From NCBI GenBank assembly GCA_018004935.1, contig JAGNBF010000019.1, positions 1,634 through 58,165 on the forward strand: a stretch of 56,532 nt of DNA, written 5' to 3'. This DNA comes from Chloroflexota bacterium (lineage in GTDB: Bacteria; Chloroflexota; Anaerolineae; Promineifilales; Promineifilaceae). Below the pieces are notes generated by a model. The model ran no database searches. It worked only from the letters and a program-made list of their open reading frames with translations, and was not told where the DNA came from. Both the position numbers and the translations under genes were made by a program. Below are positions 4,673 to 56,293 of this stretch, piece by piece (the stretch's first letter is position 1; every line of letters begins with the position of its first letter).

Positions 4673-5318
4673 CCGTTTTCGTGCGTTCGGCGCGGCGAAT
4701 GCGGCCGCGGACATCAAAATATCGCTCTGTCCCCAGTAATACCCCATTCAGCCCCAACGCCAACACCGCCACCACCACCGACCCAGCCACAATTTTGTCG
4801 TACCGGTTCTGGGCAATCCCATCAAAGAGCAACGTCCCTAACCCCCCGGCGGCAAACTTCGCCCCCACCGTGGCAATCGCCACCGCCACCACCGCCGCAA
4901 TCCGCAACCCCGCCAAAATGACTGGCAGAGCTAACGGTAACTGCACCCGCCACCACCTCTGCCAGCCACTCATGCCTAACCCCGTTGCCGCTTCCAACAC
5001 CTCGGCGGGAATACCCTGCAATCCTACCACCGTATTCCGCACCAGGATAATCTGGGTGTACAGGATTAAAGCCACCACCACCGTCGTCCGGTTCAGGCCA
5101 AACAGGGGCAGGAGCAAAATAAGCAGAGCGATGCTAGGCACAGTGTACAAGATGCCCAACACCCCCATCACCGGCGTGGCCCAGCGGGGATACCGCACCA
5201 ACACCACCCCCAAGGGCACCGCCAACAAGGTGGCAATGACCAACGCCGTGACCGTCATGCTCAAATGCTGACCGATGAGGCGAAGAATGATGGTGGGATT
5301 GGTGAGGATGTAGGTCAT
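4662..5318 (-). CDS. Osmoprotectant (glycine betaine/choline) ABC transporter permease, OpuCB-like
   Basis: A 218-aa integral membrane permease of the BPD_transp_1 type with about five hydrophobic segments. The cytoplasmic coupling motif region reads EAATGLGMSGWQRW, followed by VQLPLALPVILAGLR. Small paired permeases with this motif belong to the OpuC/OpuB/YehWY group importing glycine betaine, choline or related compounds. It is the last gene of a minus-strand cluster, separated from the ATPase gene by 533 bp of repeats, so it may need its own promoter. The C-terminus ends with basic residues. Confidence 0.88.
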   Translation of the reverse strand: MTYILTNPTIILRLIGQHLSMTVTALVIATLLAVPLGVVLVRYPRWATPVMGVLGILYTVPSIALLILLLPLFGLNRTTVVVALILYTQIILVRNTVVGLQGIPAEVLEAATGLGMSGWQRWWRVQLPLALPVILAGLRIAAVVAVAIATVGAKFAAGGLGTLLFDGIAQNRYDKIVAGSVVVAVLALGLNGVLLGTERYFDVRGRIRRAERTKTVNR

Positions 5319-5851
5319 TGCGAAAGGGTTATTGCTGGGGATATAGGATGTGTTGCAATAATTAACGGTTGGTAACTATTCAGACCCTAAAGGTTTTGAC
5401 CTCTGGTGATTCTGGCCTCATGTTAATCAAAACCTTTAGGGTCTCTCTGGCAAAAGTGCCACCTGAATAGTTACAACGGTTGAATTGTTGGGCGTGGTTC
5501 AAAAGTCGGCAAACGGTGCTTAACAATTTGTAGGGCGATTTTGTAATTCGCCCACTGGACGATTTACAAAATCGTCCTACAGATTTGTAAAGCTAACCTG
5601 AACCATGCCAATTGTTGTATCTATACAGCCCCTCACCCTAACCCGCTCCCCAGGGAGAGGGAACTAACTCCCCTCTCCTTCTGCGGGAGAGGGGTCGGGG
5701 GTGAGGGTCAGCGGTTTCACCTTCTCATTCCCCGCCGAGTGTGGGAGTATGTTGTGACACCTGAATCGTTACCACCCATTAATTATTTTCTCCTCGGTGT
5801 GGCTCGGTGGGGACACCGGCCACAGCGCGTAAGTCCTAAATTATTATCTCC
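5319..5851. repeat. Gene-free stretch with three palindromic repeats
   Basis: It holds (a) a perfect 17-bp inverted repeat, GACCCTAAAGGTTTTGA at 5383-5399 and its complement at 5427-5443, framed by outer arms TAACTATTCAG/CTGAATAGTTA; (b) 5497-5607, a GTAGG...CCTAC cruciform unit whose reverse complement, including flanks, recurs at 52562-52676; and (c) a REP-like CCCTCACC...GGTGAGGG element at 5632-5708, also found at 54732-54812. No gene is evident. Confidence 0.8.
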
Positions 5852-8326: not shown

Positions 8327-8965
8327 CTACACTGGTGGCTGGAGTCGCTTCTGCACCCGCCCCAGTCCCACATCCGCCAGCAGGGTGAGCAAAGCCACGG
8401 GCACGGCTCCGACCAAAAGGATGGCGATGTCGTACAGAGCGAAGCCGCGCACGACAAAGAGGCCCAGGCCGCCAATGCCGATGAAGGCGGCTAAGGTGGC
8501 ACTGGCGATGACTTCGGTGGTGGCGGTGCGGATTCCGGCAATGATGACGGGCAGAGCCAACGGCGTTTCGATGTAGCGCAAAATCTGCCAGGATGTCATG
8601 CCCATCCCCAAAGCGGCTTCTTTGATGGCCGGGCTGATGGTGCGATAGGCGGCATCGGTATTGATAAGGATGGGTGGTAAAGCCAGAATAGTCAGGGCGA
8701 GGGAAGCCGAGGTAAAGGACAGGCCAAAGTAGGGAATTGCCAGGAAAAGAACAGCCAGACTGGGCACGACGCGCAAGGCGTTGCTGGTGTTTAAGAACAG
8801 GACCGCGGCCGCGTCCGAGCGGCTCGTCCACACCCCCAGGGGTACACACAGGGCCACCGCCACCCCCAACGCTAACCCAACCAGGGCCAGGTGCTGACGG
8901 ATGGCCAGGGCTAACTCAGTGGTGTGCGCGGCCGCATAACGGAGAGCTTCCATGATTAATTCCAT
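8327..8965 (-). CDS. Osmoprotectant ABC transporter permease, OpuCD-like
   Basis: A 212-aa membrane permease and the likely first gene of the importer cluster. Several hydrophobic segments are visible, with the coupling region EAALGMGMTSWQILRY followed by IETPLALPVIIAGIRT, matching the companion permease at 4662. OpuC-type importers use two different permeases, and here they bracket the ATPase and binding-protein genes. A 540-bp repeat block, including element E1, separates it from the binding-protein gene. Two GCGGCCGC octamers lie in its N-terminal half. Confidence 0.88.
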   Translation of the reverse strand: MELIMEALRYAAAHTTELALAIRQHLALVGLALGVAVALCVPLGVWTSRSDAAAVLFLNTSNALRVVPSLAVLFLAIPYFGLSFTSASLALTILALPPILINTDAAYRTISPAIKEAALGMGMTSWQILRYIETPLALPVIIAGIRTATTEVIASATLAAFIGIGGLGLFVVRGFALYDIAILLVGAVPVALLTLLADVGLGRVQKRLQPPV

Positions 8966-24973: not shown

Positions 24974-25716
24974 TCTCCTGCGAAAATGTAGGGCGATTTG
25001 GCAAATCGCCCGGACGATTTATCAAATCGTCCTACAGATTTTCATTCCACCTGGTGAGCACCCCGCTCATGGGAAACTCCTGCGGAAATAGCCACGGATA
25101 ATGGAAACACGGATAGGAAGAAACACGGATGGGGATGAAAAATGGTGGCGTTATTTTCATTCCTCTTGGTGTGCGTTCCGTCCATGGGGAACTCCTACGA
25201 AAATGTAGGGCGATTTGGCAAATCGCCCGGACGATTTATCAAATCGTCCTACAGATTTTCATTCCACCTGGTGAGCACCCCGCTCATGGGAAACTCCTGC
25301 GGAAATGTAGGGCGATTTGGCAAATCGCCCGGACGATTTATCAAATCGTCCTACAGATTTTCATTCCACCTGGTGAGCACCCCGCTCATGGGAAACTCCT
25401 GCGGAAATAGCCACGGATAATGGAAACACGGATAGGAAGAAACACGGATGGGGATGAAAAATGGTGGCGTTATTTTCATTCCTCTTGGTGTGCGTTCCGT
25501 CCATGGGGAACTCCTACGAAAATGTAGGGCGATTTTTTAAATCGCCCGGACGATTTATCAAATCGTCCTACAGATTTTCATTCCACCTGGTGAGCACCCC
25601 GCTCATGGGGAACTCCTACGAAAATGTAGGGCGATTTTTTAAATCGCCCGGACGATTTATCAAATCGTCCTACAGATTTTCATCCCTCTTGGTGCGCTCA
25701 AAGCCCATGGGAAACT
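24974..25716. repeat. Tandem array of cruciform repeats
   Basis: At least five cruciform cores of the form GTAGG-[GCGATTT..AAATCGC]-[ACGATTT..AAATCGT]-CCTAC, joined by near-identical linkers (ATTTTCATTCCACCTGGTG... CTCATGGGAAACTCCTGCG; CACGGATAGGAAGAAACACG). Basic spacing is about 107 bp, with larger composite units of about 330 bp. Linkers repeat too, so this is not a CRISPR. The long frames through it translate only the repeat. Dispersed copies: 12649-12893, 19632-19782, 42473-42705, 49646-49696, 56300-56532. Confidence 0.9.
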
Positions 25717-47212: not shown

Positions 47213-47703
47213 GTTATCGCTTTTAAGAAAAAGTGTTTGGCTCTTATGGTTTCGGGTCTTGGGGATTTCGCCGGGTACGGGCAAACCATGTGGTTGCCCC
47301 ACACTGGGCAGGTACAAGGCCAGCCCCTACATTTGGTGTCAACTACCTGAATTCCCCAAGAGCCACGGCCACAATCGTCAATCGAAAATCTTTAATCGTA
47401 AATGCTATAGAATCATATTCTACCTCTGGAGACTTTTCAGCACATTCACCCTACGGCAGAGAAACGATTCCGTTATGCCACCTCCAACAAGCGTATATCC
47501 ACGTTTTGGGGGAGACCTGACAGGTTTTAGAAACCTGTCAGGTCTGTGCCCCACAATTTATGGGTATACTCCTCCAACAATCCAAAATTGACCCAAGTCC
47601 GCTTAGATGTTACGATTTCCCTACAACTCGCCTCTGGGTCGTGTTTTTCTCCCTTTTCCTGGCTATAATGAAGAACAAATCAATCGCTGGAGTTTCACGT
47701 TTT
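47213..47703. repeat. Divergent spacer with two repeats
   Basis: 47235-47360 is the cargo-type repeat (GGCAAACCATGTGGTTGCC inverted repeat, ending CAACTACCTGAATTCCC); 47489-47574 is copy 2 of the GACCTGACAGG hairpin repeat. TATAAT at 47664-47669 may be a -10 box of the downstream gene, though no -35 match is visible. Confidence 0.72.
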
Positions 47704-48843
47704 ATGATGCGTCAACGTTACCTGCTGTTTATTCCGGTTGTTCTCTTCCTGGCCTTGCTCCTGACGGCTCGCCCCGCGGCCGCAGACCAATGCCTCTTCT
47801 ACTCCAACACCATCGGCTACATCTGCCCCACCGGTGTCAGTTCCAACGTCTTCCAAACCCTACAAAAACGAGACGATAGCCTGCTCGACAGCACGATGTA
47901 TGCTTTCCTGTACGATGATGCCAATGTCTACTCGTCCCCCAGTCTGGCCGCCTCCGTCGTGCGTAACGTCGGTCAGGGCTATTTTTACGTCACCATTCGG
48001 GATCGTCTGAACATTGACGATGTTCTTTGGTACGAAATCAACCCTGGCGAATTCGTCCACCAGGATAATATTCGCGAAGTAGATATTTCTGAGTTTACCG
48101 GGTTAGAAATCACCTCCCAACCAGAACGCCCCTTTGGTTGGTTTGTCGCTAATGGCTACCCCAGTCGCTCCGCCGGGGGTGCACCGGATGAAACATTGCC
48201 CCGCCTGCTCAGGTATACTTTTTTTCAGGTGTTTGAAGCGGTCAACGCTGATGATGGCTGGATTTGGTACAACATTGGCGGGGGGTTGTGGATTCCCCAA
48301 ACGTTGGTGAGCCTGGTGGATGTCAGCCCCCGTCCCGAAGGGGTGGGGCCGGATGAGTTATGGGTGGAAGTGGATTTGTATGAACAGACCGCGGCCGCGT
48401 ATGAAGGTGATCGCATGGTTTATGCCACGCTCATCTCCAGCGGGTTAAACCGTTGGCCCACCCACGAAGGGCTATTCCAGGTATGGGACCGCTGGGAAAA
48501 GACCAAGATGTCTGGGGCTGAAGGTAAAGTGGATTACTACTTCATCGAAGATGTCCCCCACACCATGTTCTTTGACAATGACATCGCCTTACACGGTGCG
48601 TTCTGGCATGATCGTTTCGGTTATAAACATAGCCATGGTTGTGTCAACATGCCCCCCCGTGCCTCTGAATGGGTTTTCTACTGGTCAGAAGATGCCAGCA
48701 ACGACCTGTGGGTTTGGGTACACACGTCAGATCCAGCCCACATTTTTGCCAATGCCACCGCCAATCCCACCGAATCTGGGGCTAAAGCCCCCAATTGGAT
48801 GTTTGGTGTAAATGTAACCCCTAGCCGGTTCCTCACAGGGTAA
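47704..48843 (+). CDS. L,D-transpeptidase (YkuD domain), secreted
   Basis: A 379-aa exported enzyme that should form 3-3 peptidoglycan cross-links or attach proteins to the wall. Signal segment RYLLFIPVVLFLALLLTARPAAA; a middle part with SH3-like features (NVYSSPSLAASVVRNVGQGYF; WYEINPGEFVHQDN); and the catalytic YkuD domain with IALHGAFWHDRFGYKHSHGC, where the last Cys is the nucleophile. Starts at 47668 or 47560 are also open; 47704 is preferred because a TATAAT overlaps 47668. Together with the PBP at 613 it indicates a peptidoglycan wall. Confidence 0.88.
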   Translation: MMRQRYLLFIPVVLFLALLLTARPAAADQCLFYSNTIGYICPTGVSSNVFQTLQKRDDSLLDSTMYAFLYDDANVYSSPSLAASVVRNVGQGYFYVTIRDRLNIDDVLWYEINPGEFVHQDNIREVDISEFTGLEITSQPERPFGWFVANGYPSRSAGGAPDETLPRLLRYTFFQVFEAVNADDGWIWYNIGGGLWIPQTLVSLVDVSPRPEGVGPDELWVEVDLYEQTAAAYEGDRMVYATLISSGLNRWPTHEGLFQVWDRWEKTKMSGAEGKVDYYFIEDVPHTMFFDNDIALHGAFWHDRFGYKHSHGCVNMPPRASEWVFYWSEDASNDLWVWVHTSDPAHIFANATANPTESGAKAPNWMFGVNVTPSRFLTG

Positions 48844-50751: not shown

Positions 50752-52434
50752 CTATCTTCCTACACCAACCGTGCCGCCAAAGACGGCAGACATTTCTTCG
50801 TAGATAGCGGCGATGCTGGCGACATCGCCCTGGTAAAAGTTGCCGTTGCCCGCGGCCGCGAACTGTTGCAACACACTTTCATCGGCATCCGAACCATAGG
50901 CAATGACAAAAACGGTGGTATCGTTCGCGGCCGCGAGGCCCAGCAGTTGATCACCAAAACTGTAATTAAAGCTGTACGTATCCACCCCATCACTGAGCAC
51001 CACCATCGCATTCGTGGTCTGGGGGGTTGTCGTTTCGGTGATCACCTGCGATCCCAGACCGATGGCATCATACAGCGTGGTATCCCCATCGGCGACCAGG
51101 CCACGAATGGTGTTCAATAGAATTTCGCGGGCTTCACCCACCTTTTCATATCGGGCGACCAGTACCGGTTGCTGGGCAAAGGCGATGATGGTCAGGTAAT
51201 CGTTTTCGCCCATCTGCTCTACAAATTCCAGCGCGGCCGCACGCATCCCTTCCATCTTGCTCCCCGCCATACTGCCCGATACGTCCAACAGCATAACCAG
51301 ATTCACCGGTTTGCGGGCCGCTTGCCACAGCGATTGCACCGCATAAACCGTTTCCACAGTAGGTGCGGCAAAAACCACCTTCGGCTCAGACAAATCCACC
51401 CCATTCACCCCATCCAACGGTGCGCCCACCGTAACAGCCTCATTGACCGGGCGCAGACCGGCGGCCAACGCCAGTTGTTGCGCTGGTTCACTCAACAGGT
51501 AATCCCGGAACAGTTCAGCCACTTCCTGGTCTACCTCACTGGCGGAGCTATTCAGGCAGGCAGGGAAATCGGCCATGAATGTGCCTTCAAATGGGTAGAT
51601 GGGCACGATCTGGCTGTTACCGTACTGGATGACGGTGCTTTCATAGACAATAGCCGCACTCAGATAGCTCGTACCCCGCTCGCCCATCGTCTGCCCCAGC
51701 ACCGCCGTCGCCGGGCTGAACGTCGCCACCGCACTCTCAAAGGCGGTCACAGACGCCTGCACCGAGGGTTGTTGGATGTCGTCGGTGCTGATGGCCTCGG
51801 TTTGGGATTCGGCGGCCTGGACTATCGCCAGCAGGGTGCTGGCTCCTGAAGCGGACAGGCCAGGATGGGTATGCCCCAGCCGCAGAGTTTCACCGTATTG
51901 CCCGCCACTGTAATATTCCCAGGCCACCGGGTCGGCGGCCAAGCCGCTGACATCCAACCAGCCCAACGACCGGTTAGGCCAGCCGAACAGTTCGGCCACC
52001 TCGCGCCACATGGCGATAACCAACGGGCTTTGCGCCGTGCTGACACAATCACTCTGGTAGTTATTCATGCCCTGGTCGGCCAGAATGCTTGTCCAGACGG
52101 CACTATCAGGCAACCAGAGAACGGGCAGTTCGGCTCCGCCGGTCATGTCGGCAATGGCTTGCCCCGGTTCGACGCTGTTGAGGGTGACAAAGGCGGTTTG
52201 TTCGTCGCCAACGGGATTTTGGGCGTTGTTGAACTGGGCGATGGCGTTTTCTAACCAGGGTTGCAGGCTGGTAGTGGCGACGATGGTAATCGCGGCCGCG
52301 TTCCTCGGCATCTCTACCGTTGTCTCATCTGTTTCGTTGGTCACATTATTGGAGCCGGTGCAAAGGCACGCGGCCGCGAATAACGACAAAAACGTGAGTA
52401 GATAAACCAGACCACGTGAAGTTTGTTTGTGCAT
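50752..52434 (-). CDS. Substrate-binding and VWA domain lipoprotein
   Basis: A 560-aa surface protein. The signal ends FAAACLC with a lipobox-like Cys at 23. Residues 45-335 are a type II periplasmic-binding-protein domain (ITIVATTSLQPWLENAIAQF; ELPVLWLPDSAVWT; FFAGTF-like end VPIYPFEGTF, SEPAQQLALAAGLRPVN). Residues about 375-560 are a von Willebrand A domain with complete MIDAS DVSGSM (384-389) and VVLSDGVDTYS. No permease or ATPase is nearby, so import is unlikely; metal- and ligand-dependent surface binding is more plausible. The next gene upstream is a second substrate-binding fusion. Confidence 0.86.
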   Translation of the reverse strand: MHKQTSRGLVYLLTFLSLFAAACLCTGSNNVTNETDETTVEMPRNAAAITIVATTSLQPWLENAIAQFNNAQNPVGDEQTAFVTLNSVEPGQAIADMTGGAELPVLWLPDSAVWTSILADQGMNNYQSDCVSTAQSPLVIAMWREVAELFGWPNRSLGWLDVSGLAADPVAWEYYSGGQYGETLRLGHTHPGLSASGASTLLAIVQAAESQTEAISTDDIQQPSVQASVTAFESAVATFSPATAVLGQTMGERGTSYLSAAIVYESTVIQYGNSQIVPIYPFEGTFMADFPACLNSSASEVDQEVAELFRDYLLSEPAQQLALAAGLRPVNEAVTVGAPLDGVNGVDLSEPKVVFAAPTVETVYAVQSLWQAARKPVNLVMLLDVSGSMAGSKMEGMRAAALEFVEQMGENDYLTIIAFAQQPVLVARYEKVGEAREILLNTIRGLVADGDTTLYDAIGLGSQVITETTTPQTTNAMVVLSDGVDTYSFNYSFGDQLLGLAAANDTTVFVIAYGSDADESVLQQFAAAGNGNFYQGDVASIAAIYEEMSAVFGGTVGVGR

Positions 52435-52723
52435 GGTTATTCCCCTGAAGGGTTATGGGTAAACTAAAATAAAAAGATTTTCACCGCCAAGACGCAAAGG
52501 ACGCAAAGGTTTACTCTGGGCTTCTTTTCTTCTTAGCGATCATGGCGTCTTAGCGGTTCGGCATGGTTCAGGTCAGCTTTACAAATTTGTAGGACGATTT
52601 GGTAAATCGTCTCGTGGGCGATTTACCAAATCGCCCTACAAAGTGTTAAGCACCGTTTGCCGACTTTTGAACCACGCCAGCGGTTCTATTTATTGACAAG
52701 ACTTACCCATAACATTCCCTTGT
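52435..52723. repeat. Spacer with cruciform repeat
   Basis: 52480-52555 is a CCGCCAAGACGCAAAGGACG...AGCGGT repeat; 52562-52676 is the reverse complement of 5497-5607, including the flanks CATGGTTCAGGT and TTTGAACCACGCC, so both copies share boundaries. Confidence 0.75.
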
Positions 52724-54394
52724 TTACCGCCCTGCCGTAATCAGACGCATCTCCACATACCGGTCTTCTGCCTGGAGCGTGGCATCAGCCGTGCCCCGGT
52801 GATCTTCCGGTGGAAGCGTGGCCGTCACGATGAAGCGGGCCGGGTCCACCCCTTGCGACACGAGGTAATCTACGACTGATTGCGCCCGTGCTTCGGCAAA
52901 CTCCAGAATTTCGGCTTCGGTATACGTTGCGCCCGTAAAGGGATCCACATCCGGCCAGGCGGACGAACCTTTCACTTCCAAAAACAGGCCGATACTTTGT
53001 TGGAGCGTGGGGATGACGCATTCATCCAATTGGCGACGGGCTTCCAGCGTCAGTTCGGTGGAGTTGGGCAGGAAGTCGAATTTGCGGCAGGGCAAAACCG
53101 CCAGGGTAATGGCGTCGGCGGTGTCTACATCCACACCGGAAAGGTCGAGTTGGGCCGAGATGGAGAAAGTGTCGTTGATCGGTTTACCGTTGGCTTGCAG
53201 GTTGGCCTGTTGCGCCGCCCGCTCCACAAAGCGGGTATCTACCAGATCGGCCGTGTTGTATTCAGGGATGGTCAGGCCAGAAACGGAGATGGCCCACACC
53301 CGTTTGGCGATCTCCAGCCGGTTGACGAGGGGGGTGGGATCGCGCATGACGAAGGCGTTGTCGCCCAGGTCGGCCTGGGCGACGTTGGTGAGCCAGGCCC
53401 GGAAGTCGTCGCCAGCAGATTCGGGATAGACGAAGGACCAGTCGTTATGACCCCAACTGGCAATCTGCGCGGCCGCAGAGTCAAACCCTTCTACCTGTGC
53501 CTTCAAGGTGGCAAACCAGGCATTGTGGAACGATTGCACCAGATCGGCCTCATTGGCCACCGATTGGCGTGAAGTCACGATCACGTCTACTACAATCCGC
53601 ATCTGCGCCGAACTAAGAATAGGCTGACCCCCACTACTTTCGGCGTCAAAAATATCCGGCTCCCAGCCGGAAACCGCATCCGCCTGATTGGCGTTGAAAG
53701 CGGCCACCGCATCGGCTACGCTGTCTTGGGGAACCAGGGTCACGTCAAAACGGGGATTGAGCCGGGCAATGGAGAGGGAGTAGTAGAGGAAATATTCCCC
53801 CACACTGTTACGGGCAAAGGCGATCCGTTTGCCTGCCAGATCATTGATGGTAGTGACATCTCGCCCCCACAACTGGTCAGCACCCGCACTTTCATCCACG
53901 ATGGCGGTGATGACGCCCGGACTGGTCAGGGCCACCGAGTCCAGCGTCGTCAGCAGGCAATCCCATTGCCCATTGTTCAGCAAGGCCGTGCGTTGTTCCT
54001 CGGAGACATCATAAGCCGGGTCTTCATCCAGGAAGAAGGGCACAATGCCCAGGTGGAAGCCATTAGCGACATCCTGACCGGCCATTTGCATCTGTTGCAG
54101 GGTGAAGTAACTGCCAAAGGCATCGGCCCCACAGATGTAGGTGGGCAAACCATCACTCAGATCGGCACCGGGTGCATAAACGGGTTCAGGTGAATCCAGT
54201 TGTTCACTGGTATCTCCGCCATTACTGGTTGTGCGGGTTGGGGTCGCTATGTCGCCGACCTCGGCGACAGGTGTTGCGGTGGCATCCTGATCACGGTTAT
54301 TGATGAGAACAACCCCGGCGATGATGCAAATGACCACCACCGCCAGACCAACGATGCCGATAAAGATGAGTCGGGTGCGATCCATGTTGTTCAT
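52724..54394 (-). CDS. Substrate-binding and OmpA-like domain fusion protein
   Basis: A 556-aa protein with one N-terminal membrane helix (LIFIGIVGLAVVVICIIAGVVLI) and a short Thr/Ser linker. Residues about 75-400 form a type II periplasmic-binding domain (LPTYICGADAFGSYFTL; LTSPGVITAIVDESAGADQL; AGKRIAFARNSVGEYFLYYS; ADAVSGWEPDIF). Residues about 430-556 are OmpA-like (FDFLPNSTELTLEARRQLDE; ARAQSVVDYLVSQGVDPARF), a peptidoglycan-binding fold. The fusion would tether a binding domain to the cell wall. ATG 54394 has AGGAG at 8 nt. The VWA fusion gene lies 289 bp downstream, same strand. Confidence 0.86.
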   Translation of the reverse strand: MNNMDRTRLIFIGIVGLAVVVICIIAGVVLINNRDQDATATPVAEVGDIATPTRTTSNGGDTSEQLDSPEPVYAPGADLSDGLPTYICGADAFGSYFTLQQMQMAGQDVANGFHLGIVPFFLDEDPAYDVSEEQRTALLNNGQWDCLLTTLDSVALTSPGVITAIVDESAGADQLWGRDVTTINDLAGKRIAFARNSVGEYFLYYSLSIARLNPRFDVTLVPQDSVADAVAAFNANQADAVSGWEPDIFDAESSGGQPILSSAQMRIVVDVIVTSRQSVANEADLVQSFHNAWFATLKAQVEGFDSAAAQIASWGHNDWSFVYPESAGDDFRAWLTNVAQADLGDNAFVMRDPTPLVNRLEIAKRVWAISVSGLTIPEYNTADLVDTRFVERAAQQANLQANGKPINDTFSISAQLDLSGVDVDTADAITLAVLPCRKFDFLPNSTELTLEARRQLDECVIPTLQQSIGLFLEVKGSSAWPDVDPFTGATYTEAEILEFAEARAQSVVDYLVSQGVDPARFIVTATLPPEDHRGTADATLQAEDRYVEMRLITAGR

Positions 54395-54832
54395 GTTCTT
54401 CTCCTGAAAGGTAGCGGGTCAGCGGGTTAGCATTTCAGCTTCTTAGCTGACAGGCTGACTATAGCTTTCAAGAAAAAGATTTTGGGTTTGTAGTAACCGC
54501 TTTAGCGGTCCCACGCTGGACGACTAAAGTCGTTACTACAAACTAACTCAAAATGATTTTCTGAACATCTATAGCTTCTTAGCTGACTAGCTGACTGGCT
54601 GACATGCTGAAATTTACGTTCTACCAGGCTATTGGTTGCGTCACGTAAGGGGATTGTAACGCAAAGTCAGGAGGTATGACATAAAAAAGCCTCTGGATGG
54701 GCCAGAGGCTTTTTTCTTGTAACAATACGACCCCTCACCCTCACCCTCTCCCACAGGGAGAGGGAACTTGCCCCCTCTCCCGTTGCGGGAGAGGGTTGGG
54801 GGTGAGGGTCCACACGCAACACGTTTCCTGCC
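54395..54832. repeat. Spacer with cruciform, terminator and REP element
   Basis: 54487-54542: outer arms TTTGTAGTAAC/GTTACTACAAA enclose two small hairpins (CGCTTTAGCG; CGACTAAAGTCG). AGCTGAC/GTCAGCT short repeats lie around 54441-54600. 54682-54715 is a terminator and 54732-54812 a REP-like CCCTCACC element. Confidence 0.8.
54682..54715 (-). terminator. Terminator of the arginine decarboxylase gene
   Basis: AAGCCTCTGG-CCAT-CCAGAGGCTT with A and T tracts on both sides; works in either direction. It lies about 115 nt beyond the stop codon of the gene at 54833, past the REP element. Confidence 0.9.
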
Positions 54833-56293
54833 TTACGCCCGCCGATAACCCAGGTTGAACATCACCTCATCTTCGGTCTGGCCGTGTACCAGTTCAAAGC
54901 GGTAGTTGCCCTGAGCATCTTTGTCAATGATGAGTTCCATCGCTTCGGGCAGGACACAATGTTTACTGCCGCGCACGCCGCCCAGCATCTCCTGGTACGC
55001 GCCAATGCTGAAAAAGCCAATGTACAAATCGTCCGTTTCGGTGGGCAGGTAGAGGGGAGATTCGCTCTTTTTGGGCGGATATACGTCGTCGCTGTCGCAG
55101 GTGATGCCACCCAATTGCACCCGCTGGAATGGTTTGTCCAGGTGGTTGAGGGGTAAGAGCATAAAATGTTCACCCAACGCCCAGCTATCGGGGAAGGATG
55201 ACATGATGGAGCTGTCTATGATGTACCAGGGGGTGTCGGATTGGTTGTCTTTGGCGGTGATGATTTTGAACAGGTGTGCCCCGTGTTCGCTGGTGGTGTA
55301 GCGGCCAAATTCGCCCATGATGTCGGGGACGGGGACATGGTAGCGGCCGCAGACTTCTTGCGCCGTGGTGAGGAGTAAGCGGATAAAGGCCCGGTAATCG
55401 AAATTGAAATCCAGGGTCATACGCACGGGCATCCCGCCACCAAAATTGAAGATACGCAGGCTGGGGTGACGCTGTTTGAGCCGGGCGTATAGCTCCAGCC
55501 CTGGTTTGAGGTAGCTGAGGAACTCATCCGGGTTGGTGATCTGGCTCCCCACCATGTAGTGATAGAGGGAGAAAGTGAGGTTGGGCGCGGCCGCGAGGTA
55601 ATCCGCCGCCTTCCACAAATCATCCAGGCATAGCCCAAAGCGAGAATTAGCCCCATTCATCTCCGCTTCCGTAGTGTTGTGCCCATAACTCTTCTGCCGT
55701 AACCCCACCTCAAACGGCTTCCCCGACGTCAACAACCAGCCAATCTCCGGCAAATCCTCAATCACTGGGATCACCTGCTCATGCTCCCCCTTCAGTTGCA
55801 CGATCTTGGTGGCATAACTGGAACCTGGCCCCTTGAAGCCATTACAAATGACCATGCGATCAGGGGTCAGCAGGCCCCGTTGCATCATCAGCCGGGCGAT
55901 GTCCACATCCACCCCGGACGACATCTCATGGTGCGCTCCGGCTTTGAGTGTAGTGCGGATGATCTCCTCGGCGGCGTTGGCTTTGGAGGCGTAGGTGTAA
56001 TGGAATTGGCCTTCGTAACCCAGTTCGGCGATCACCTCGGCAAACATCTGTTGCATCTCATGGATGCGCCGGGTGATGAGCGGCAAGTAAACCAGTTCCA
56101 GCGGTGAAGGGATAGCCCCGCCAACGGGTGGGAATACCGGCCCTTCTACGGCACTCTCTTGGGCCAGGAACAGTTGGGCCAGGTCTACACCACCCAGGTG
56201 TAAATGTCCGCCGTGGTTGACCAGATAATCGGTAAAAGCATGGCCATCAGGAACAGGCTCTTCCTGCTCCCAGCCGATAATGGAATGGGTCAT
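54833..56293 (-). CDS. Arginine decarboxylase (alanine-racemase fold, PLP-dependent)
   Basis: A 486-aa decarboxylase related to biosynthetic SpeA, which makes agmatine for polyamine synthesis. The Schiff-base lysine is K104 in YTYASKANAAEE; then come HEMSSGVDVDIARLM, NGFKGPG, SRFGLCLDDLW, FNFGGGMPVRM (PLP phosphate loop) and near the end CDSDDVYPPKK, the conserved Cys-Asp motif. It is shorter than E. coli SpeA (658 aa), so related carboxynorspermidine or diaminopimelate activities remain possible. ATG 56293 follows AGGAGAACCTT, a site lying at the end of a cruciform repeat. Confidence 0.85.
   Translation of the reverse strand: MTHSIIGWEQEEPVPDGHAFTDYLVNHGGHLHLGGVDLAQLFLAQESAVEGPVFPPVGGAIPSPLELVYLPLITRRIHEMQQMFAEVIAELGYEGQFHYTYASKANAAEEIIRTTLKAGAHHEMSSGVDVDIARLMMQRGLLTPDRMVICNGFKGPGSSYATKIVQLKGEHEQVIPVIEDLPEIGWLLTSGKPFEVGLRQKSYGHNTTEAEMNGANSRFGLCLDDLWKAADYLAAAPNLTFSLYHYMVGSQITNPDEFLSYLKPGLELYARLKQRHPSLRIFNFGGGMPVRMTLDFNFDYRAFIRLLLTTAQEVCGRYHVPVPDIMGEFGRYTTSEHGAHLFKIITAKDNQSDTPWYIIDSSIMSSFPDSWALGEHFMLLPLNHLDKPFQRVQLGGITCDSDDVYPPKKSESPLYLPTETDDLYIGFFSIGAYQEMLGGVRGSKHCVLPEAMELIIDKDAQGNYRFELVHGQTEDEVMFNLGYRRA

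Follow-up and report, generated by a model that had tools for sequence, protein, structure and literature searches.

Two adjacent genes on the minus strand of the window (viz. the whole stretch of 56,532 nucleotides analysed here, from contig JAGNBF010000019.1 of a member of the class Anaerolineae, phylum Chloroflexota) encode proteins in each of which a substrate-binding protein (SBP) domain is fused to another module, an OmpA-like domain in protein A and a VWA domain in protein B. A and B form a conserved strict pair and not a chance neighbourhood, as is seen from their co-occurrence in 19/19 genomes and their adjacency in 30/30 contigs. We consider the chances to be about even that these two proteins are the outward-facing, solute-sensing, non-transporting input of an envelope-stress module of Anaerolineae that is linked to PspA.

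Architecture of proteins A and B

The presence in this region of two adjacent minus-strand fusions, as proposed in a first-pass annotation of this DNA, is confirmed by the open reading frames (ORFs) at the following coordinates and by Pfam and fold-model matches for both architectures:

52724..54394, minus strand: gene A, membrane-anchored SBP/OmpA fusion of 556 aa (ORF call, Pfam, AlphaFold model, fold matches)
54299..54379, minus strand: predicted N-terminal anchor helix of A, residues 6-32 (AlphaFold helix 6-32; hydropathy peak 12-30)
53225..54148, minus strand: type II binding-protein domain of A, residues 83-390, TauA/SsuA-like (VIA Z 24.6 to TauA; NMT1 Pfam match)
52739..53092, minus strand: OmpA-like domain of A, residues 435-552, with Asp replaced by Ala479 and Arg503 kept (Z 14.5 to Pal; alignment columns)
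50752..52434, minus strand: gene B, lipoprotein SBP-VWA fusion of 560 aa (ORF call, Pfam, AlphaFold model, fold matches)
52366..52377, minus strand: permissive lipobox AAAC of B, Cys23 (motif check in the alignment)
51307..52302, minus strand: type II binding-protein domain of B, residues 45-376, sulfate/molybdate type (SBP_bac_11; Z 29)
50776..51312, minus strand: VWA domain of B, residues 375-553, with a complete metal ion-dependent adhesion site (MIDAS) (Pfam, fold match, alignment columns)

Protein B matches the Pfam families SBP_bac_11 (52.7 bits; cut-off 25) and VWA (58.4 bits; cut-off 23.8). The earlier claim of a VWA domain with complete MIDAS behind a lipobox also holds, as the five MIDAS residues (D384, S386, S388, T452 and D482, viz. 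DxSxS, Thr and Asp) are invariant in 41/41 aligned sequences and the permissive lipobox ends at Cys23, with a comparable motif in 32 of the 41 rows and none in the other 9. In the AlphaFold model of B, which was built from an alignment of its relatives (pLDDT 91.9, pTM 0.88), residues 43-376 match the sulfate-binding protein 5um2 (Z 29.4, root-mean-square deviation (rmsd) 3.0 over 294 residues), whereas matches of the VWA half are 4fx5 (Z 24.1, with an rmsd of 2.2 over 179 and an aligned range of 230-554) and, over residues 375-553, 9c4f_I (Z 23.5, rmsd 2.2 over 178). The polyamine binders PotF, PotD and SpuD are also among the structural matches of B (Z about 24). The fold matches thus fail to discriminate between ligands (for B, sulfate at Z 29 and polyamine at Z 24), and no ligand identity is claimed here.

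In protein A, residues 12-30 form a single strong hydrophobic segment in the hydropathy profile, and the NMT1/SsuA-type binding domain is recognised by the Pfam family NMT1/THI5-like (25.1 bits; cut-off 20.5). The OmpA match, at 26.2 bits, is slightly below the Pfam cut-off of 27.2, and the nearest NCBIfam models, all under their cut-offs, are those of urea/sulfonate binders and OmpA-type lipoproteins. The AlphaFold model of A, likewise built from an alignment of relatives, has a pLDDT of 84.1 and a pTM of 0.79; in comparisons by VIA-align, its residues 83-390 match TauA 6ssy_A (Z 24.6, rmsd 3.8 over 285) and its residues 435-552 match the Acinetobacter baumannii Pal protein 4g4w (Z 14.5, rmsd 2.1 over 107). 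Foldseek results for the two proteins are consistent with these matches and added no further family. A W244-E245-P246 motif and D270 of A are invariant in 32/32 aligned sequences and, judging from the matching WDP/WAP motif and Asp in SsuA/TauA, probably line the binding pocket. Based on these sequence features and models, each protein is predicted to have a clamshell binding domain that would be held at the membrane, by a helix in A and by a lipid in B. With regard to such anchors, a paralogue of the SBP-VWA protein in this genome (L105:6131-7912, minus strand) has an A-like membrane helix, MSDLSRTRITFFVIIGI, at its start and no lipobox, and the two anchor types appear to have been swapped between members of the SBP-VWA family.

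The first-pass annotation also had the OmpA domain of A fixing the complex to the cell wall. Of this claim, the OmpA/Pal fold stands, but the residues that would carry the wall binding are only partly kept. In A. baumannii OmpA, diaminopimelate (DAP) is bound by Asp271 and Arg286 (PMC5974059). By strand register, the position of the DAP-binding Asp is occupied in A by Ala479 in each of the 31 sequences that have a residue in this column, and an ungapped alignment of the domain likewise places no Asp at the canonical position, whereas Arg503 is conserved in 31/31. The domain thus has the fold and the Arg in common with OmpA C-terminal/Pal domains but has lost the Asp. Because Ala stands in the place of the canonical Asp and the Arg alone is retained, the usual signature is broken and binding of peptidoglycan by A should be regarded as unproven.

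Pairing of A and B and their association with PspA and protein C

In a survey of 249 genomes of the class, where close relatives were defined at E<1e-100, those of A were found in 19 genomes and those of B in the same 19. A single contig carries both genes in 17 of these genomes and they are on separate contigs in the other two (G048 and G238); gene A of G238 is situated at base 12 of the contig that carries it, while for gene A of G048 the coordinates are identical to those on the public contig L069, which stops 88 bases past A. Of the 36 public contigs with A, 30 extend past this gene, and in every one of them B comes next on the same strand. The gap between the two genes has a median of 40 bp in the 29 contigs where it was measured, as compared with 289 bp in the window.

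PspA (PF04012) lies directly after B in 8 of the 30 contigs with sequence beyond A, and a protein here called C adjoins the pair in 12/36 loci. Two gene orders recur, viz. decarboxylase-C-A-B and decarboxylase-A-B-PspA-C, the first of which is also seen in a genome of another class (L212). Protein C is a membrane/coiled-coil protein of about 280 aa (this genome's copy is at L175:7325-8164; alignment A4), in which a hydrophobic N-terminal part, probably a hairpin, is followed by a long and probably helical part; at the threshold used, two hydrophobic segments are recorded in the copy from L083 and one in that from this genome. C has no Pfam family above the curated cut-off, with sub-threshold matches only, and it is found in 139 of the 249 genomes. 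In this genome the locus with C and PspA (C222; L175) lacks A and B and has a histidine-kinase/receiver protein and a TPR protein nearby. A relationship of C to neighbour proteins from Vibrio and Miltoncostaea was considered and rejected, as none of the ORFs of seven plasmid stretches matched the C profile at E<=1, a comparison that is incomplete for Miltoncostaea, where an antisense ORF is listed in the place of an annotated 264-aa gene.

The association extends to a further SBP-VWA family that is common in the class and is more distantly related to B (about 31% identity). Among the matches listed, 119 genomes hold both an SBP-VWA gene and C, and in 78 the two are within 3 kb of each other. 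Of 20 distant SBP-VWA loci selected from the hit list, 9 have both C and PspA and 11 have neither. PspA is present on 17 of the 19 stretches fetched around C; a twentieth stretch of this set, which was fetched for its SBP-VWA gene and is outside the 19, has neither C nor PspA. Where the SBP-VWA gene is linked to PspA, its neighbour is commonly another binding protein, one that lacks VWA, and C is frequently followed by a type I binding protein (Peripla_BP_6). Binding proteins beside PspA and without a transporter are therefore a repeated theme, of which A is the OmpA-bearing version. The wider cluster (L116:3443-10707 and syntenic loci) also contains, beside PspA, an AAA/STAND-like protein with an OmpR-type winged helix-turn-helix; it is possible that this protein is a regulator and that the Peripla_BP_6 protein is a third binding protein.

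The other features of the window that bear on the pair are as follows:

54833..56293, minus strand: arginine/DAP-decarboxylase-like pyridoxal phosphate protein of 486 aa (adjoins A in 22/32 relative contigs with upstream sequence)
54683..54715, minus strand: hairpin resembling an intrinsic terminator, situated between A and the decarboxylase-like gene (14-bp stem, -20.3 kcal/mol)
52592..52636, no strand assigned: palindromic repeat within the A-B gap, a member of a repeat family of the window (29 matches vs 0.01 expected)

Upstream of A, the 36 contigs have the decarboxylase-like gene in 22 cases, a radical-SAM gene in 5 and neither in 5, while 4 begin too near to A. The decarboxylase-like protein scores under every NCBIfam cut-off. 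Several relatives have, just upstream of the decarboxylase-like gene, a group of related proteins that includes an McrBC component (PF10117) (L077:2627-3853, L085:5207-6418, L087:1677-2939 and L100:5004-6305); McrBC is found in 4/122 scanned neighbour ORFs of the pair. In the window, an L,D-transpeptidase-like (YkuD) protein is encoded on the opposite strand three genes beyond B (47560-48843, plus strand). The palindromic repeats (GGACGATTT..AAATCGTC-like; matches with <=3 mismatches) are clustered at 24991-25670, and others are near 5557, 12659, 19743, 42639, 49650, 52592 and 56431.

A sensory role weighed against other explanations

If A and B are the input of a PspA-linked module, a small charged ligand would close the clamshells of both proteins. 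A ligand of this kind is suggested because the domain of A is nearest to sulfonate/taurine binders and that of B to sulfate binders, and also to polyamine binders, while the adjacent decarboxylase-like gene may point to an amine. The MIDAS of B would engage a partner, possibly A; C would transmit the state across the membrane to PspA; and PspA, as the effector, would stabilise or remodel the membrane. In this genome the pair would act in trans, since PspA and C are encoded at another locus. This order of signalling within the module is quite doubtful. It is also rather unlikely, if somewhat less doubtful, that the two tethered binding proteins, one of them with a VWA clasp that has a metal site, act through C on PspA and constitute the ligand-gated outer half of a new kind of phage shock protein (PSP) system. 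In such a system an ESCRT-III-like membrane remodeller would be switched by a solute from outside the cell, for which an amine produced by the neighbouring decarboxylase-like enzyme is a candidate.

A number of observations weigh against a PspA-linked sensory role. The adjacency of PspA to B is limited to the 8/30 contigs noted above; in this genome PspA (C222, C161 and C112) and C (C222) are off the contig with A and B; and in the genome G194, which has the pair, neither PspA nor C was detected, which indicates that the link of the pair to these proteins is not obligatory. The 11/20 distant SBP-VWA loci with neither C nor PspA include that of the paralogue at L105, and in the window the terminator-like hairpin stands between A and the decarboxylase-like gene. 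Further, the operons with PspA and a PBPB-OmpA protein described in PMC11237479 contain an ABC (ATP-binding cassette) transporter. A distant Vibrio operon couples an A-like SBP/OmpA protein and a VWA protein with ABC transporter genes, and this weighs against a role confined to sensing, at any rate in the Vibrio relative.

These last points lead to the possibility that A and B are orphan binding proteins which hand their ligand to an ABC permease and ATPase encoded elsewhere, the OmpA and VWA domains only positioning them. We regard this as unlikely, though service to a distant transporter is a genuine candidate because the genome has 68 matches to the permease family BPD_transp_1. Binding proteins of the TauA/SsuA/NrtA type, the fold of which is shared by the binding domain of A (Z 20-25), belong to importers and have a cognate ABC transporter, and the binding folds of both A and B are those of importer SBPs. 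However, while the type II fold is present in A and B, a cognate permease or ATPase in the same operon is absent. The earlier claim that no ABC permease or ATPase is nearby has held up, as there is no ABC permease near the pair in the window, where the closest are at about 4713-5219 and 8342-8845, >40 kb off, and in relatives an ABC ATPase (ABC_tran) was seen in only 2 of 122 scanned neighbour ORFs. No ABC-importer permease is among the 25 most frequent of the 186 families in these 122 ORFs. The 122 were drawn from the 219 within 4.5 kb of the pair; genes already identified as decarboxylase, PspA, C or radical SAM were set aside, as were contigs that nearly duplicate another and certain ORFs at the extremes of length. 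It is PspA and C that recur as partners, and a MIDAS domain is not known to play a part in import. An ABC permease paired with such genes elsewhere, named in the first-pass annotation as evidence that would count against it, was found in part, viz. outside the class in the Vibrio plasmid operon, which has ABC genes together with TelA, whereas within the class ABC genes beside the pair are rare.

It is improbable that A and B mainly serve amine or polyamine sensing or homeostasis, monitoring outside the membrane an amine that the decarboxylase-like enzyme makes or uses, with PspA being secondary. The presence of the decarboxylase-like gene upstream of A in 22/32 contigs and in the window, the polyamine binders among the structural matches of B, and the coupling of PspA to polyamine genes reported in PMC11237479 are consistent with it, but a radical-SAM gene takes the place of the decarboxylase in 5 contigs and neither is present in 5, the best matches of B are sulfate binders, the enzyme is below every NCBIfam cut-off, and the hairpin stands between its gene and A. 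A wall-tethered pair for adhesion or recruitment, in which the OmpA domain of A fixes the complex to peptidoglycan and the VWA domain of B recruits an external partner, is more improbable still. The OmpA fold (Z 14.5), the complete MIDAS and the strict A-B pairing, which the first-pass annotation had proposed to check by a neighbourhood survey and which the survey bears out, would fit this role. However, the DAP-binding Asp is Ala in 31/31 sequences, the Pfam matches of A and B include no adhesin family, the general VWA domain excepted, and an adhesive role does not predict the association with PspA and C. Of the two functions offered in the first-pass annotation, no finding points to adhesion, and ligand sensing by the pair is the best reading. 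The association of PspA, a binding protein, an SBP-VWA protein and C recurs across the class.

What it is that PspA senses outside proteobacteria is largely an open question. If PspA receives its input, via a dedicated membrane adaptor, from binding proteins that carry a VWA clasp, this would provide a concrete envelope-stress sensor in a phylum with very little genetics, as well as a function for the labels "substrate-binding and VWA domain-containing protein" and "substrate-binding/OmpA family protein", which are in use but undescribed. Protein C, in view of its presence in 139/249 genomes and its lack of a curated Pfam family, is a worthwhile target by itself.

Comparison with known systems

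The SBP-VWA architecture of B is also seen in proteins annotated as "Substrate-binding and VWA domain-containing protein" from Streptomyces and Variovorax and in a vWA protein from Sphaerotilus, with B-profile scores of 143 bits for Variovorax and 174 bits for Sphaerotilus. These came from a plasmid search with B that yielded 50 records, six of which were examined. Unlike the pair, the Variovorax and Sphaerotilus proteins have a TelA neighbour, and no SBP/OmpA protein is annotated in the flanks shown for any of the three. The first-pass annotation had suggested TelA/TerD-like neighbours in relatives; in a search for TelA (PF05816; TerD was not searched), 9 of the 249 genomes of the class had a match, 8 of them over the cut-off and none being this genome. 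TelA was therefore dropped as a partner for this clade, where PspA and C recur instead.

The plasmid search with A gave 3 records, all from Vibrio (identity 25.6%, query coverage 30%). The Vibrio plasmid operon (NZ_AP019851.1) encodes an ABC ATPase, an SBP/OmpA protein, a VWA protein, a second SBP/OmpA protein, a coiled-coil protein, TelA, a urea-type SBP and a permease. It resembles the pair in combining SBP/OmpA, VWA and a membrane/coiled-coil protein, and the A profile matches one of its SBP/OmpA proteins at 70.7 bits. However, its VWA is a separate protein, TelA is in the place of PspA, an ABC transporter is present, and the C profile matches none of its ORFs. In the OmpA motif, the homologue matched by the A profile has GHTS instead of GHTD, whereas the other OmpA-bearing protein keeps GHSD.

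No description of the A-B arrangement was found in the literature searched, which did not extend to supplements, and the phrase "substrate-binding and VWA domain-containing" does not occur in it; Chloroflexi, VWA and OmpA have no occurrence in PMC9239133. The nearest described systems are the PspA/Snf7 operons of PMC11237479 (2024), which are reported there with an AAA+ ATPase, an ABC ATPase, a permease and a PBPB-OmpA protein; "vwa" has 0 occurrences in that paper. The pair has in common with them the protein with a binding domain and OmpA and, in those relatives where PspA is adjacent, the PspA neighbourhood, but it differs in that an ABC transporter is lacking locally, another binding protein is fused to VWA, and protein C is present. 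The known frame is thus that of PspA operons with a PBPB-OmpA protein and of a coupling of PspA to polyamine genes, both described in PMC11237479, and what differs in the present case is the absence of a local transporter, the VWA fusion and protein C.

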